Below, in pieces: positions 23,778-59,252 of a DNA stretch of 64,000 nucleotides. A model generated the notes under the pieces. The model was not told where the DNA came from and did not search any database. It worked only from the letters and a program-made list of their open reading frames with translations. Numbering within the stretch: position 1 is the first letter of the stretch; each line of letters starts with the position of its first letter. Source of the stretch: Aquificales bacterium (GTDB taxonomy: Bacteria; Aquificota; Aquificia; Aquificales; Aquificaceae); assembly GCA_027037055.1 (NCBI GenBank), contig JALWBR010000022.1, forward strand, positions 1 to 64,000, written 5' to 3'. The position numbers were made by a program, and so were the translations under genes.

Positions 23778-25088
23778 TTATGCCTCCCGCACTAAGTAAT
23801 TTACTATACCCTCCATAGCCATACCCCTTGAACCCTTCACAAGGAAAACCGTATCCCTTTTATCCATTTTATCAACTTCTGCAAGTATATCGGCTTTTGT
23901 TTCCGTATATTTAGCGGATTTGTGTCTTTTTACTGTTTCCTCCCATGCGTATATCATCTCTTTACCGTAAAATATAACCTTGTCAATATCAAGACCTGCT
24001 ATAAAAATGCCCGCTTCCCTGTGTAGCTTCTCGCTGAAGTCTCCAAGCTCAAGCATATCTCCAAGGATTGCAACCTTTCTGCACGGAAAGAGGGAAAGGG
24101 TTTTTAGGGCATTCTTTAAAGATAAAGGGTTTGAATTGTAGGAGTCATCTATAACATAGTAATCTTTAACTTTAATAATCCTCATCCTCCCGGGAACACC
24201 CTTGAAATCTTTTAACAGGGGAATAATATCCGTAACCTTCATTCCCAATGCCTTGAGTACACAGGCTGAGGCAAGCACATTCTCAACTATACCTATATTA
24301 ACCACAGGGACAAAGGCTTCTTTACCCATAAGTAAAAACCTCGTCCCTTCAAAACTTACTGTTATATCAGAAGCCTCCACATCGCCTCCCCTTCCGAAGG
24401 TTATAACCCTAAAATCCCCTTCAACCCTATCCTTTATATTTACCGGTACTATAAGTGTGTCCTCCTCTCCCATAAATGCTGAAATCTCTAAATTGCCCCT
24501 TATCACACCTTCAAGATCGCCGAAAGTTTCAAGATGTTCTTCTCCTATCGCAGTTACAACTCCTACGGAAGGTTTTGTTATCTCCGTCAACTCCTTAACA
24601 TCGCCCACCGCACTCGCCCCGTGTTCAAGAACCCAATAGTCCGCATCAGTATCCATGTTTAATATACACAGGGGAAGCCCTATTCTTGAATTCATATTAC
24701 CTTCCGTTTTCTCCGTCCTCCCGAAATGGCTTAAAACATAATGAATCAACTCCTTCGTAGTAGTCTTCCCAGCGGATCCCGTAACCCCTATAACCTTACC
24801 CTTAAAAGACTCTCTTTTATACTTTGCTAAGTACTTAAGGGCCTCTACTGTATCTTTAACAATCACTTGAGGTAAGGAAACATCAACCTTTTTTGAAACC
24901 AACGCACCAGCTCCCCCCTTCCTTTTCACTTCCTCCAAAAAATCGTGTCCGTCATACTTGCTACCTTCTATAGCTATAAAACATTCCCCCTTCCTTATTT
25001 TTCTACTGTCAATGGAAAAACCCATAACTTCCCTGTCCTCTCCTACAAGCTCACCCCCTACTATTTTCGCAATCTCCCTTAGTCTCAT
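23778..25088 (-). CDS. murF: UDP-N-acetylmuramoyl-tripeptide--D-alanyl-D-alanine ligase
   Basis: A 436-aa Mur ligase that adds D-Ala-D-Ala to the peptidoglycan precursor in the cytoplasm. Visible features are the N-terminal domain with SIDSRKI.KGE.FIAI, the P-loop GVTGSAGKTTTKE, the N.NSRIGLP motif and the DDSYNSNPLS motif in the C-terminal domain. The start overlaps the surE stop by 4 bases. The rest of the dcw cluster (mraY, murD, ftsW) is absent here. Confidence 0.95.
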   Translation of the reverse strand: MRLREIAKIVGGELVGEDREVMGFSIDSRKIRKGECFIAIEGSKYDGHDFLEEVKRKGGAGALVSKKVDVSLPQVIVKDTVEALKYLAKYKRESFKGKVIGVTGSAGKTTTKELIHYVLSHFGRTEKTEGNMNSRIGLPLCILNMDTDADYWVLEHGASAVGDVKELTEITKPSVGVVTAIGEEHLETFGDLEGVIRGNLEISAFMGEEDTLIVPVNIKDRVEGDFRVITFGRGGDVEASDITVSFEGTRFLLMGKEAFVPVVNIGIVENVLASACVLKALGMKVTDIIPLLKDFKGVPGRMRIIKVKDYYVIDDSYNSNPLSLKNALKTLSLFPCRKVAILGDMLELGDFSEKLHREAGIFIAGLDIDKVIFYGKEMIYAWEETVKRHKSAKYTETKADILAEVDKMDKRDTVFLVKGSRGMAMEGIVNYLVREA

Positions 25089-25837
25089 ATTTCTTCCAAA
25101 AACCTTATGGCTTCCATAGCCTTGTAGTTTGTCATATCAATATGAAGGGGAGTAACGGATACATATCCGTTCGCAACCGCCCAATAGTCCGTATTTTCCT
25201 CACTATCCCATGCAAACTGTTGTGCAGCTATCCAGTAAAGGGGTTTCCCGTAAGGATCCGTATATTTAAAAACCTTCTCCTTATAATTCCTCTTACCCTG
25301 CCTTGTAACACGAATACCTTTTATATCGTCCCTTCTAAGGTTGGGAATATTAACATTTAAGTATGTATCTTCGGGAAGACCCTTATCAAGCACACTCCTT
25401 ACAATATCCCTGGCAACATCCGCCACATCCTTCCATAAAATGTTTTCAACCCCAAAGACGGAAAAGGCTAAGGACGGAATACCCAAAATCCTACCCTCCA
25501 TTGCCCCCGAAACGGTACCCGAGTAGGTTATATCCTCCCCGAGATTGGGACCCTGATTTATACCCGAACATACAATGTCCGGCTTCTTACCGTCAAGAAG
25601 TACATAGTAACCTAAGTGAATACAATCCGCAGGTGTACCTCCTATAACCGTATAGAAATCTTCATCAATACGCCTCATCCTCAAAGGCTCCGTAAAGGTA
25701 AGGGAATGACCAACACCGCTTAAATTTCTGTCGGGCGCCACGGCTACAACCCTTCCCAAATCGGATAAGGACTCTCTTAAAGCCCTTATACCTTCGGAGA
25801 AGTAACCATCATCGTTTGTAATAAGAATTAAGGACAT
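25085..25837 (-). CDS. surE: 5'/3'-nucleotidase SurE
   Basis: A 250-aa acid phosphatase that dephosphorylates nucleoside monophosphates. The N-terminal signature ILITNDDGYFSEGI carries the metal ligands (N8, D9, D10). The GTPADCIHLG motif, SGINQGPNLGED and TYSGTVSGAMEG follow. Length is normal. The ATG is 19 bases from the end of the IS200/IS605-like relic. An AT-rich GATAAT ends 9 bases before ATG, suggesting its own leaderless start. In other bacteria surE often sits near survival or stationary-phase genes; here it leads murF. Confidence 0.94.
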   Translation of the reverse strand: MSLILITNDDGYFSEGIRALRESLSDLGRVVAVAPDRNLSGVGHSLTFTEPLRMRRIDEDFYTVIGGTPADCIHLGYYVLLDGKKPDIVCSGINQGPNLGEDITYSGTVSGAMEGRILGIPSLAFSVFGVENILWKDVADVARDIVRSVLDKGLPEDTYLNVNIPNLRRDDIKGIRVTRQGKRNYKEKVFKYTDPYGKPLYWIAAQQFAWDSEENTDYWAVANGYVSVTPLHIDMTNYKAMEAIRFLEEI

Positions 25838-25859
25838 GGTTCTAATATTATCAAGTGAA

Positions 25860-26129
25860 CCTCTCCTTCCTTACGGAAGGAGCTCCTGGTAGGGAACCAA
25901 GTCCCACCCAGAAGACCCACATGGGGATTCCTGCTTCAACAAGGGATGGCTAACTACCTCTCCTGAGGTAGCCCCGCCAGAGCCCTCTCCACAGGCATAA
26001 GTTCGGGTCGCACCGACCCTACCACCCGTAAGGTGGGTGAGCCCTTAACCCTTTCGCTTCTAACCGATTTCCAAACCTTTATCACTAAGGTGGAGGCTGG
26101 CATTACACCCCTGTAGCTCTCCACCTGTA
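25860..26129 (-). ncRNA. Candidate orphan omega-RNA from the tnpB 3' end
   Basis: In IS605-type elements the guide (omega) RNA is made from the tnpB 3' end up to the right end. This segment corresponds to that position and folds into many perfect stems: AGGTGGAG/CTCCACCT (26088-26126), GGGTCG/CGACCC (26005-26019), CTACCTC/GAGGTAG (25954-25971) and CTCCTTCC/GGAAGGAG (25863-25882), the last closed by a GTAA tetraloop on the minus strand. A sigma-70-like promoter lies just upstream on the minus strand. It does not show tmRNA, SRP or RNase P hallmarks. Transcription and function are unproven. Its boundaries are estimates. Confidence 0.45.
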
Positions 26130-26133
26130 GAAA
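25954..26133 (-). pseudogene. C-terminal remnant of TnpB transposon-encoded nuclease
   Basis: An open frame of about 59 codons (preceded in frame by TAA at 26134-26136) ends in TAG at 25954. An ATG at 26103 would give 49 aa. The translation ends VRPELMPVERALAGLPQER, which resembles the typical C-terminal tail of IS605 OrfB/TnpB proteins (RPE..PVE motif). No zinc-ribbon Cys or RuvC motif remains upstream, so only the tail survives. A match to TnpB tails by database search would confirm this. I rely on pattern memory, so confidence is moderate. Confidence 0.5.
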
Positions 26134-26135
26134 TT

Positions 26136-26164
26136 ATTTTAGCTTCCTACTCTGTTATATGCAA
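26136..26164 (-). promoter_or_regulatory. Putative promoter for the omega-RNA relic
   Basis: On the minus strand TTGCAT (26164-26159) and TAAAAT (26141-26136) are separated by exactly 17 bases. The predicted start, near 26129, lies just before the first long hairpin of the structured region. This is a good sigma-70 match in a window where most promoters lack a recognisable -35. Confidence 0.45.
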
Positions 26165-26237
26165 CCCCAGAACGCACCTTAGGGCGACGCCCTGTATCCT
26201 CCCCCTTGCGGAAGGGGACTTAGAGCGTAGATTTAGT

Positions 26238-26243
26238 TAAAAT
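26238..26243 (+). promoter_or_regulatory. -10 box of mtaD, predicting a leaderless mRNA
   Basis: TAAAAT ends 8 bases before the mtaD ATG (26252). No Shine-Dalgarno lies between. The IS-like relic ends just upstream of this box, so the insertion left the core promoter intact but replaced what lay upstream. Confidence 0.55.
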
Positions 26244-26251
26244 AATTTCCC

Positions 26252-27556
26252 ATGTTTGATCTGGTGGTAAAAGGCGGTCTCGTTTACAGAAAAGGTAAGA
26301 TTGAAAAGGCGGATATAGGAATATTGGAAGGCATAATAAGGGAGATAAGGGGGGGAATAGAGGAAGATTCAAAAGAGACGATATATGCGGACGGTAAATT
26401 AGTATTTCCTGCATTTGCCAATGTGCATACACATGTTTCCATGTCCCTTTTGAGGGGTATAGGATCTGATTTACCCCTTATGGACTGGCTACAGAAGGTA
26501 ATATGGCCCCTTGAAGGGGAATTCGTATCACCCGAATTCGTTAAAACGGGAGCCTTGCTTGGAATCTTAGAAATGATAAAATCTGGGACAACCCTGTTCT
26601 TGGATATGTACTTCTTTGAAGATAAAGTGGGCGAGGCAGTGGAGGAAGCTGGTATAAGGGCGGGGTTGGGCTTCGGGATCCTTGACTTTCCCACGAAGGT
26701 TGCAAAGACACCTGACGAATACATAAGAAGATGCGAAGAAATGATAAATCAATTTAAAGGACACTCCCACCTTATACCCGTGGTCTCTCCCCATGCCACC
26801 TATACCTGTTCACCCTCCACACTAAGGAAATCCCTTGAACTTGCAGAAAAGTATGATGTTCCTATCCATATACATCTTTCGGAAACAAGGTCGGAATTGG
26901 AAAGGGTAAAAGAAGAGTACGGATTTACACCCGTTAAACACCTTGAAAATCTCGGCTTTCTCTCAGAGAGGGTAATCGCGGCACATGTAGTTTGGACCGA
27001 TGAGGAAGAAAGGGAGATATTAAAGGAAAGGAAGGTTAATGTGGTACATTGTCCAGAAAGCAACCTTAAATTGGCCTCCGGCATTGCCCCGATACCAGAT
27101 TACATAAGAAGGAGCATAAAGGTAGGTATAGGGACGGACGGACCCGCGTCAAATGATAATTTGGATATCCTTGAAGAAGTATCTACCATGGCAAAGATAC
27201 ATAAGGGTTATAATTTGGACGCAAAGGCTATAGATGCACGCACAGCCCTTAAGATCTCAACGGAGAACGGCTTTTCCATGCTTGGTATTAAGGCGGGCAA
27301 TATTGATACGGGATATGAAGCGGATATTATCATAGTAAATACGGATTCACCCCACTTTCAGCCCCTTTATGATCCCGTTGCCCAGTTTATTTATGCGGGT
27401 AAATCTTCCGATATAGAAACCGTTATATGTAAAGGCAGAGTGGTAATGTACAAAAGGGAAATAAAAACTTTGGATGAAGAAAAGGTGATCCTGGAAACAA
27501 AAAAATGGGGAGAAAAGATAAAACATTTCATGGATAAAAACCTTATGTTAGAATGA
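26252..27556 (+). CDS. mtaD: 5-methylthioadenosine/S-adenosylhomocysteine deaminase
   Basis: A 434-aa amidohydrolase. The metal-binding HxH is at H59 and H61 (NVHTHVSM), a His follows in IHIHLSE, a further His in AAHVVW, and the catalytic Asp is in GTDGPASND. Family features such as LRGIG.DLPLMDWL near the HxH and the NVVHCPESN.KLASGI motif are those of MTA/SAH deaminases (MtaD). These convert MTA or SAH to the inosine derivatives. Together with mtnB, mtnC and mtnD this suggests salvage through the deaminated intermediate. Other amidohydrolases such as guanine or chlorohydrolase types are less likely. Confidence 0.85.
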   Translation: MFDLVVKGGLVYRKGKIEKADIGILEGIIREIRGGIEEDSKETIYADGKLVFPAFANVHTHVSMSLLRGIGSDLPLMDWLQKVIWPLEGEFVSPEFVKTGALLGILEMIKSGTTLFLDMYFFEDKVGEAVEEAGIRAGLGFGILDFPTKVAKTPDEYIRRCEEMINQFKGHSHLIPVVSPHATYTCSPSTLRKSLELAEKYDVPIHIHLSETRSELERVKEEYGFTPVKHLENLGFLSERVIAAHVVWTDEEEREILKERKVNVVHCPESNLKLASGIAPIPDYIRRSIKVGIGTDGPASNDNLDILEEVSTMAKIHKGYNLDAKAIDARTALKISTENGFSMLGIKAGNIDTGYEADIIIVNTDSPHFQPLYDPVAQFIYAGKSSDIETVICKGRVVMYKREIKTLDEEKVILETKKWGEKIKHFMDKNLMLE

Positions 27557-50614: not shown

Positions 50615-50640
50615 AAGGGTGGAGTATTTAAATAGGTGGA

Positions 50641-50898
50641 TTATTCAATGCCTATGAATTTGTATATACCTGAAACTATTTTGTCGGGGGAAACTTCATA
50701 GGTGCCGTTTTCTATTTCCCTTTTTATCCTTTCCACCTTCAACTTTATATCGTCATAATCAACCTTTGATGCTTCCTTTGCAACACTTGAAATCTCCACC
50801 CTGTCGCCTTTAACCGATTCACTCCCCTTTACACCCTTCCTTTTTTCTAAGTTAACAACATAGTTAACAAGTTTGCTTATCTCTACCCTGTTTATCAT
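50641..50898 (-). CDS. flgM: Anti-sigma-28 factor
   Basis: An 85-aa protein of the FlgM family that holds back the flagellar sigma factor FliA until the hook is built. The unstructured N-terminal half is basic and polar. The sequence DRVEISSVAKEAS is the usual conserved start of the sigma-binding region, and helical C-terminal segments (IKLKVERIKREIENGTYEVSPDKIV) match the family. A ribosome site GGGGTGAT and a TATAAT at 50923-50918 (minus) lie upstream. flgA and flgG lie just upstream on the same strand, separated by coaE. Confidence 0.88.
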   Translation of the reverse strand: MINRVEISKLVNYVVNLEKRKGVKGSESVKGDRVEISSVAKEASKVDYDDIKLKVERIKREIENGTYEVSPDKIVSGIYKFIGIE

Positions 50899-50930
50899 CT
50901 TCTAATCACCCCGTAATATTATATCGGATT

Positions 50931-51521
50931 TTACGGATCGGATTTTAGTGTTTTATAAACCTCCTTAACTTGTTCCCATGTATTATTTATGTCACCGCTA
51001 TTGTCTATAATTATATCTCCAAGCTCCTTCTTTTTTTCAATATCCATCTGATATCTCATCCGTCTTTCAAAATCCTCGGGTAACATTCCCTTCTCTGTAG
51101 CCCTCCTCCTGCATTCATCGTAGGGTGCGTACACAACTATAACCTTATCGTACATGTGTCTTGTATTCTTTTCAAATATAAGGCTTGCTTCTACCATAAA
51201 AATATCTTCCTTCCCTAAGTTCCTTTCTATTTCCCCAAGTCTTTCGTATAAAGCTTTATGGGTTATTTCCTCAAGCCTTTTTAAAAGCTCAGGATTCTCA
51301 AAAACTATATCAGCAACTTTCTTCCTATCAATATCCCCATTATCACCAACAACCTCATCACCAAGAAGAGAAACAAGTTCATCATAAATGGGTGAATTTC
51401 TTTTATAAAACCCCCTTATTATCTCATCCGCATCAACCACAACCGCACCCAGCCTTTTAAACATGCTACCTACCGTAGATTTACCGCACCCAAGATTTCC
51501 CGTTATACCTATTTTCTTCAT
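50931..51521 (-). CDS. coaE: Dephospho-CoA kinase
   Basis: A 196-aa P-loop kinase catalysing the last step of coenzyme A synthesis. The Walker A motif is GNLGCGKST at residues 7-15, followed by GA.VVDADEI. The MVEASLIFE motif replaces the usual VPLLFE, a mild variation, and the C-terminal R/K-rich lid is present. The start overlaps the flgA stop by 4 bases, so it is embedded in the flagellar operon although its function is unrelated. Confidence 0.94.
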   Translation of the reverse strand: MKKIGITGNLGCGKSTVGSMFKRLGAVVVDADEIIRGFYKRNSPIYDELVSLLGDEVVGDNGDIDRKKVADIVFENPELLKRLEEITHKALYERLGEIERNLGKEDIFMVEASLIFEKNTRHMYDKVIVVYAPYDECRRRATEKGMLPEDFERRMRYQMDIEKKKELGDIIIDNSGDINNTWEQVKEVYKTLKSDP

Positions 51522-58825: not shown

Positions 58826-59060
58826 ACCCCTCCTTCACTATGTGAATAGACTTAACATCAGCAAGGGGAGGACCTTCCATAAGATCTTTAATGAAGTACC
58901 ACAACACTTCATCGTCTCCCGTAACATAAACCTCAACCCTTCCGTCCGGTAGGTTCCTTACCCATCCAGAAAGACCGTAGCTGTCAGCCACCCTCTTTGT
59001 AAAGTTCCTGTAACCTACACCCTGAACCCTACCTTCAACAAAAATTCTGAGGGCAGTCAT
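58788..59060 (-). CDS. acyP: Acylphosphatase
   Basis: A 90-aa alpha/beta protein that hydrolyses acyl phosphates. The signature GRVQGVGYRNF contains the catalytic Arg18, and Asn36 lies in GWVRNLPDGRVEV. Length matches the family. It is divergent from the Trm112-like gene with only a 21-base gap, an AT-rich region containing candidate -10 boxes on both strands. Its 3' end overlaps the LysM gene by 38 bases. Confidence 0.92.
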   Translation of the reverse strand: MTALRIFVEGRVQGVGYRNFTKRVADSYGLSGWVRNLPDGRVEVYVTGDDEVLWYFIKDLMEGPPLADVKSIHIVKEGFVESTGSFDIRY

Positions 59061-59066
59061 GTTTAA

Positions 59067-59072
59067 TATAAT
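59067..59072 (+). promoter_or_regulatory. -10 box of the Trm112-like gene
   Basis: TATAAT ends 9 bases before ATG (59082). It lies within the 21-base gap that also has to serve acyP on the minus strand, so the two start regions must overlap. No ribosome site is seen. Confidence 0.5.
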
Positions 59073-59081
59073 AATTCTATT

Positions 59082-59252
59082 ATGTTGTCGGAAGATTTGA
59101 TAAACATTCTTGCATGCCCGAGATGTAAGGAAAGCCTTAAATACATAAAGGATGAAAATATACTCGTGTGTAAGAAATGCAACATATTTTTTGAAATTAG
59201 GGAAGGTATTCCTATCCTCCTTCCCGATGCGGGAAAACCTCTGAAAGAATAA
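59082..59252 (+). CDS. Trm112/YcaR-like zinc-ribbon protein
   Basis: A 56-aa protein, too short for common ORF filters. The zinc-ribbon pattern is clear: LACPRCK near the N-terminus, CKKC in the middle, and the end EIREGIPILLPD. It matches the Trm112/YcaR family, small methyltransferase or tRNA-modification partners and putative chaperones. A close tRNA-modification gene is not adjacent here. The last 41 bases overlap the 3' end of the convergent HAD phosphatase gene, and the codon use looks normal in both. Confidence 0.7.
   Translation: MLSEDLINILACPRCKESLKYIKDENILVCKKCNIFFEIREGIPILLPDAGKPLKE

Follow-up and report, generated by a model that had tools for sequence, protein, structure and literature searches.

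A PATE-type IS605 derivative upstream of surE in an Aquificales bacterium, with an interior resembling an omega-RNA expression cassette

The insertion between surE and mtaD

The window (the whole stretch of DNA that was analysed, 64,000 nucleotides long) carries surE and an mtaD-like gene on opposite strands, separated by 414 bp (25838–26251). This is the largest gap in the window between open reading frames (ORFs) of at least 100 aa; the next-largest ORF-free gaps are at 58826–59214 (389 bp) and 50615–50933 (319 bp). A preliminary description had placed an orphan IS200/IS605-type relic in this gap, between surE and mtaD, pointing to its size, its distinct base composition, its hairpins and the common direction of the hairpins at its ends. 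The location and each of these four properties were borne out. The locus is organized as follows.

25085–25837, minus strand: surE, flanking host gene (ORF list; orthologues)
25855–26236, minus strand: complete non-autonomous IS605-type (PATE-like) element, C...GGTTCAC (empty sites; ends alike in other copies)
25863–25882, minus strand: right-end hairpin CTCCTTCCGTAAGGAAGGAG (helix 11; compensatory changes)
26201–26217, minus strand: left-end hairpin CCCCTTCCGCAAGGGGG (in common with the IS605 element on contig C12)
26237–26241, minus strand: TTTAA target/TAM motif preceding the left end (empty sites and other copies)
26252–27556, plus strand: mtaD-like flanking host gene (adjacent in congeners; name from the preliminary description)

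Three congeneric genomes have an empty site upstream of surE, ATTATTTTAA/TTGATAATATT (slashes mark junctions), in which TTTAA runs directly into the right flank; written with the first bases of that flank, their surE/mtaD region reads ATTATTTTAA/TTGATAATATTAGAACCATG. The occupied site in the window is ATTATTTTAA/CTAAATCTACG...GGTTCAC/TTGATAATATTAGAACCATG. The empty sites therefore define the insertion exactly as 25855–26236 on the minus strand, 382 bp; the interval proposed earlier, 25856–26222, is slightly too small. Insertion occurred 3' of TTTAA without duplicating the target, in line with Y1 transposition. Both the three empty sites and the other copies described below show this fixed short target without duplication, which is characteristic of palindrome-associated transposable elements (PATEs), known from Haloquadratum walsbyi (PMC3119063). 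Also in keeping with a PATE, the element is too short for a transposase and has no tnpA; the longest listed ORF within it is 56 aa.

The GC content of the 382-nt element is 53.9%, against 41.0% for the window, and was the highest among the 382-nt stretches sampled. Its omega strand folds better than 200 of 200 dinucleotide shuffles (z = −3.4; 276-nt stretch 25855–26130), and both end hairpins have a CCTTCCG(Y)AAGG-type core in the same orientation. Among four congeners, only the window genome has an insertion at surE/mtaD, and this is its single copy. To judge from these alleles, the element appears to have arrived after the window lineage split from the sequenced congeners; three precise losses are the less likely alternative.

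The IS200/IS605 derivation suggested in the preliminary description is upheld by copies with matching ends on two other contigs of the genome, C12 and C33. A full IS605-type element on C12 has tnpA (135 aa) and tnpB (436 aa), alike in orientation, and matches the first 191 nt and last 52 nt of the interval 25856–26222. Its left end is 87% identical to that of the window element, and both near-terminal palindromes are common to the two. The tnpB copy on C33 lacks most of tnpA and matches the same 191 nt and a short left-end piece. In Pfam searches, the C12 and C33 proteins were identified as Y1_Tnp (5e-45 for the C12 tnpA) and OrfB_IS605/Cas12f1-like_TNB. The C12 TnpA is related by sequence to ISHp608 TnpA, to which the HIH of HUH type and a tyrosine align, and TnpB matches ISDra2 TnpB (8bf8, 3.6e-55). 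The presumed catalytic RuvC acidic positions of TnpB line up with the best-matching chain, which is an AI-designed nuclease, and a cognate TnpB with intact RuvC residues is encoded on both C12 and C33. The left end of the C33 copy (L010:1-1660) is without the CTAAA start and the TTTAA target of the other copies, and its flanks resemble a broken gene.

Scaffold, 5' module and reading frames

Read along the minus strand, the left-end hairpin is followed by a 5' module, a drifting spacer and a 192-nt omega-RNA scaffold that extends up to the right end. The interior features, with the flanking guide, are listed below.

26159–26164, minus strand: −35-like TTGCAT (column conservation)
26136–26141, minus strand: −10-like TAAAAT (column conservation)
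26088–26126, minus strand: leader hairpin AGGTGGAGAGC...GCCTCCACCT, the best-conserved stretch within the element (pairwise identity)
26046–26087, minus strand: poorly conserved spacer (mean pairwise identity 0.60)
25855–26046, minus strand: omega-RNA scaffold and right end, 192 nt (identity to tnpB 3' ends; compensatory changes)
25928–25995, minus strand: sub-threshold full-length match to RAGATH-18 (RF03064; 27.4 bits, E = 0.0049, gathering threshold 44.9)
25954–26124, minus strand: off-frame ORF ending RPELMPVERALAGLPQER, the frame of the preliminary description (56 aa from a GTG at 26124)
25871–26044, minus strand: tnpB C-terminal frame, decayed yet still open, 57 codons and a stop (GLTHLTGGRVGATRTYACGEGSGG...YQELLP-stop, compared by eye with the C33 TnpB tail)
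25835–25854, minus strand: predicted guide TTGATAATATTAGAACCATG, up to the surE start codon (directly 3' of the right end)

The scaffold is homologous to the 3' end of tnpB and terminates at the right end; its identity to the omega-RNA/right end is 91% for the tnpB copy on C33 and 88% for that on C12. This agrees with the earlier proposal that the nuclease gene is gone and the guide-RNA part kept. The guide RNA looks complete. Between divergent copies, the two main parts of the scaffold have mean pairwise identities of 0.87 and 0.81. The drawn secondary structure is conserved with compensatory changes: 25 cells are changed on both sides, compared with 9.7 in shuffles, and 0 of 500 shuffles reach 25, in a control that leaves relatedness among the copies in place. 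Such changes occur in helices far from the end hairpin. Helix 8, the tip hairpin, is 100% paired though its region is the least conserved, which is due in part to three copies without the tip hairpin.

The preliminary description would have been contradicted by the lack of any TnpB or omega-RNA match together with conservation of the sequence, as a known noncoding RNA, in unrelated taxa without IS605 elements. This is not what was found: no Rfam family passes its gathering threshold anywhere in the window, and the only informative match below threshold, which recurs in C12, C33 and other copies, is to RAGATH-18, a family linked to the guide RNAs of TnpB (PMC11061315). The scaffold resembles RAGATH-18, the reRNA of IS607-type TnpB (RF03064; PMC11061315), in that the covariance match is full length. 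It differs in scoring 27.4 of the 44.9 bits required for membership, and in that the ends and transposase are of IS605 rather than IS607 type.

The 5' module consists of a promoter-like sequence, TTGCAY-N17-TAAAAT, and the 39-nt leader hairpin; it is common to the dispersed copies and absent from tnpB elements. TTGCA occupies an identical column, with 17-nt spacing, in all ten full copies, nine of which have TAAAAT at the −10-like position and one CAAAAT. A consensus promoter scan returned nothing above threshold, and the promoter-like sequence of the window scores below it. The match is 8 of 12 positions, a score reached by 10–13% of shuffles of one sequence, so it is solely conservation at a fixed column that argues for a promoter. 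The leader hairpin has a mean pairwise identity of 0.90 between divergent copies, with so few changes and almost no covariation that covariation is uninformative there. It was not found in the tnpB copies compared, and local alignment of 26047–26171 to the complete C12 element scored no higher than alignment to shuffles.

These patterns bear on whether we are dealing with an ordinary PATE that is a parasite of TnpA only. The scaffold would then be kept through its overlap with the TnpA right end and the recent age of the copies, and no guide RNA would be made or used. PATEs are indeed known as gene-free IS605 ends (PMC3119063; PMC7290912), the ends are near-perfect in all copies, and the promoter evidence is weak. 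However, constraint spans 190 nt of scaffold and also a leader hairpin that is not one of the terminal hairpins, with a drifting spacer in between. Both this and the compensatory changes distant from the end hairpin speak against such a parasite. The presence of cognate TnpB in every copy-bearing genome tested, degraded in one, also counts against it. We consider this explanation rather unlikely, though it deserves to be taken seriously.

Two reading frames overlap the scaffold. The 59-codon minus-strand frame reported earlier is present but is 56 aa when read from its GTG. It had been likened to a TnpB C-terminus; relative to the cognate TnpB it is off-frame. BLASTP of this RPELMPVE frame against the cognate TnpB gave no match, nor did the frame match any Pfam family, and the cognate tail lies in another frame, GLTHLTGGRVGATRTYACGEGSGGATSGEVVSHPLLKQESPCGSSGWDLVPYQELLP followed by a stop. 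The frame RPELMPVERALAG resembles instead the tail CPELMPVEGV of a different TnpB type in the window genome (contig C24; the translated tail was read). One RNA scaffold thus appears to be read in two frames by two TnpB types, which suggests that RNA rather than protein constraint probably explains the RPELMPVE motif.

A dispersed family in other Aquificales

At least 13 further copies, nine of them full length, were found in five other Aquificales genomes, ten in one genome (G010). They have TTTAA/C...TTCAC/ ends and unrelated flanks, a dispersal typical of PATEs. TTTAA precedes the left end in 13 of the 13 copies with an assembled left end (the window copy included). Right ends are almost all GGTTCAC, the exceptions being GGTTCAT (S141_114), GGTTCGC (AMOR20) and GGCTCAC (G10_C27). 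Among ~85,000 species genomes, a degenerate 33-nt interior motif matched Aquificota MAGs only, namely T11 bin 071 (matching G010, with its ten copies), S141_87, S141_114, 356-308 and AMOR20; the diagnostic motif had no exact match in viral contigs. In one G010 copy the element starts a few bases past the 3' end of a tRNA gene (L037:504-582). A third short element with similar end hairpins and a different interior adjoins a window-type copy (L118:4310-4629).

The notion of an orphan relic must be given up: the element is one copy of a dispersed family with reproducible ends and its own 5' module, inserted after divergence from the three congeners. Formation on the spot, with an old insertion losing internal sequence to leave a one-off degenerate IS605 relic, would fit the tnpB tail frame that is still open. 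It fits neither the empty site in three congeners nor the full-length copies with the same internal 5' module in other genera. An interior common to copies in other genera cannot be explained by deletion in place, and we give that origin next to no credence.

Cognate TnpB was detected in all five copy-bearing genomes other than the window genome and is degraded in one. In AMOR20 only pieces with stops were seen, the copy in G003 (69% complete) has one in-frame stop, and the pieces in G010 are cut by contig ends. S141_87 has a relative of the cognate TnpA (60% identical), which was not found in 356_308, AMOR20 or S141_114; G010 encodes Y1_Tnp proteins.

Several of the other copies are likewise found immediately ahead of genes. 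At the window locus the divergent promoter region is short and the omega strand reads into surE, so that the RNA, or the inserted DNA itself, might have been domesticated to control surE/mtaD expression with or without TnpB. Against this, the insertion is unique to the window genome among four congeners, which gives no sign of long retention at the site, and no clear orientation rule relative to genes was seen among the insertions. We regard a domesticated regulator as very improbable.

In a scaffold tree, a short alignment with mixed support values, the elements of G010 cluster with the tnpB copies of that genome. The S141_87 element lies near its own tnpB copy, with a 30-nt deletion in common, and the 356_308 element near its own, with a tip-hairpin haplotype in common. 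The window copy does not group with C12 or C33 despite its 88% and 91% identity to them. The grouping with tnpB copies of the same genome suggests, as a lead, that scaffolds may have been swapped with that of the resident tnpB element or derived anew from it, and that the 5' module was inherited across the family.

A second family of short, omega-only elements (type 2), TTTAG/GATAAAATTTGCG...GAGGAGGTCAC, is represented by ten or more copies in G010 and by others in G001 and G003 (L145-L156, L158). These elements start after a conserved TTTAG, their scaffold ends in GAGGAGGTCAC, and most copies have a TTGAAT-N17-TAAATT-like sequence ahead of the scaffold. One G010 element (C24; L110:980-1231, minus strand) is a chimera in which the left end and leader hairpin of the window type (type 1) are joined to a type-2 scaffold.

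Guide, target and possible mode of action

The 20-nt predicted guide TTGATAATATTAGAACCATG stands directly behind TTTAA in all three empty congener alleles, a perfect guide/TAM match. Its only copy in the window genome is preceded by TTCAC rather than TTTAA, so the occupied site would be protected. A match in empty alleles and not at the occupied site is what the TnpB retention model predicts (PMC8612924). The same pattern follows from any IS605 insertion and is by itself no proof of RNA use.

PATEs with retained right ends have been described (PMC3119063; PMC7290912). The window element resembles those of H. walsbyi and Halanaerobium in being IS605-derived, without a transposase gene, with near-terminal palindromes and no target duplication. 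The Halanaerobium hydrogeniformans element retains a right end of 160 nt along with 58 nt of tnpB (PMC7290912), and thus, like the window element, a tnpB tail and the whole right end. In contrast to those PATEs, the element described here lies in Aquificales. Also unlike theirs, its interior combines a conserved module of promoter-like sequence and hairpin with a scaffold constrained at the RNA level, and its link to TnpB guide RNA is made explicit. PATEs are reportedly also mentioned in a study of IS605 in Geobacillus stearothermophilus. The window element is like ISDra2 in its end hairpins, its insertion 3' of a short TAM, and a scaffold that ends at the right end and takes its guide from the flank (PMC8612924; PMC10278001). 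Processing of the tnpB mRNA into omega-RNA by TnpB itself is known (PMC10278001). Unlike ISDra2, the window element has neither tnpA nor tnpB, and its RNA would have to be transcribed independently and to rely on TnpB from another locus.

The element looks like a PATE whose interior resembles an omega-RNA expression cassette. We think it probable, though well short of assured, that this non-autonomous IS605 element works as a mobile cassette of that kind, with TnpA and TnpB supplied in trans. An IS605 copy at another locus would supply TnpA, which would cleave single-stranded DNA at both ends and insert the element 3' of TTTAA; for the window element, the intact tnpA with the same ends on C12 is the predicted source. 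The promoter-like sequence of the family-specific 5' module would start a minus-strand transcript that passes through the leader hairpin and scaffold into the flank, the first 16–20 nt of which would form the guide. A TnpB expressed from another locus would associate with the scaffold and could then cleave insertion-free alleles (TTTAA plus guide), favoring retention of the element or its recopying via homologous repair. From the sequence comparisons we infer promoter activity and transcription, TnpB loading, cleavage and recopying as steps of this cassette model. The insertion in the window genome, the sole copy there, could be inactive. The cassette model predicts that TnpB with the window RNA cuts TTTAA-TTGATAATATTAGAACC (site TTTAATTGATAATATTAGAACC) and not the occupied TTCAC junction.

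If the omega-RNAs work, many dispersed guides could share one TnpB, so that transposition would have built a natural multi-guide system. There would then also be a mechanism, beyond hitch-hiking on TnpA, by which gene-free IS605 derivatives survive. A broader proposal, which we advance tentatively, is that stand-alone mobile omega-RNA cassettes exist as a class. They would be mobilized by TnpA, carry their own promoter and leader, and have scaffolds matched to the resident TnpB by recombination, and TnpB acting in trans would cut empty alleles and so bring about self-retention. Two or more such families would coexist in Aquificales and exchange modules, differing in scaffold and in TAM (TTTAA and probably TTTAG).

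Scaffold-like sequence was also seen outside the two families. In the window genome and two congeners, a leader of ~150 nt precedes three paralogous genes for apparently secreted proteins (MRNQKNPWII...; L012:1313-1465, L009:971-1122 (minus), L013:1307-1416 (minus), L053:1501-1653 (minus) and L054:1501-1651). Its first 30 nt, TCACCCGCCTTAAGGGTGGTAGGG, resemble the omega scaffold; the leader also has a terminal hairpin and extends into the ribosome-binding site, and is possibly a domesticated omega-RNA fragment.
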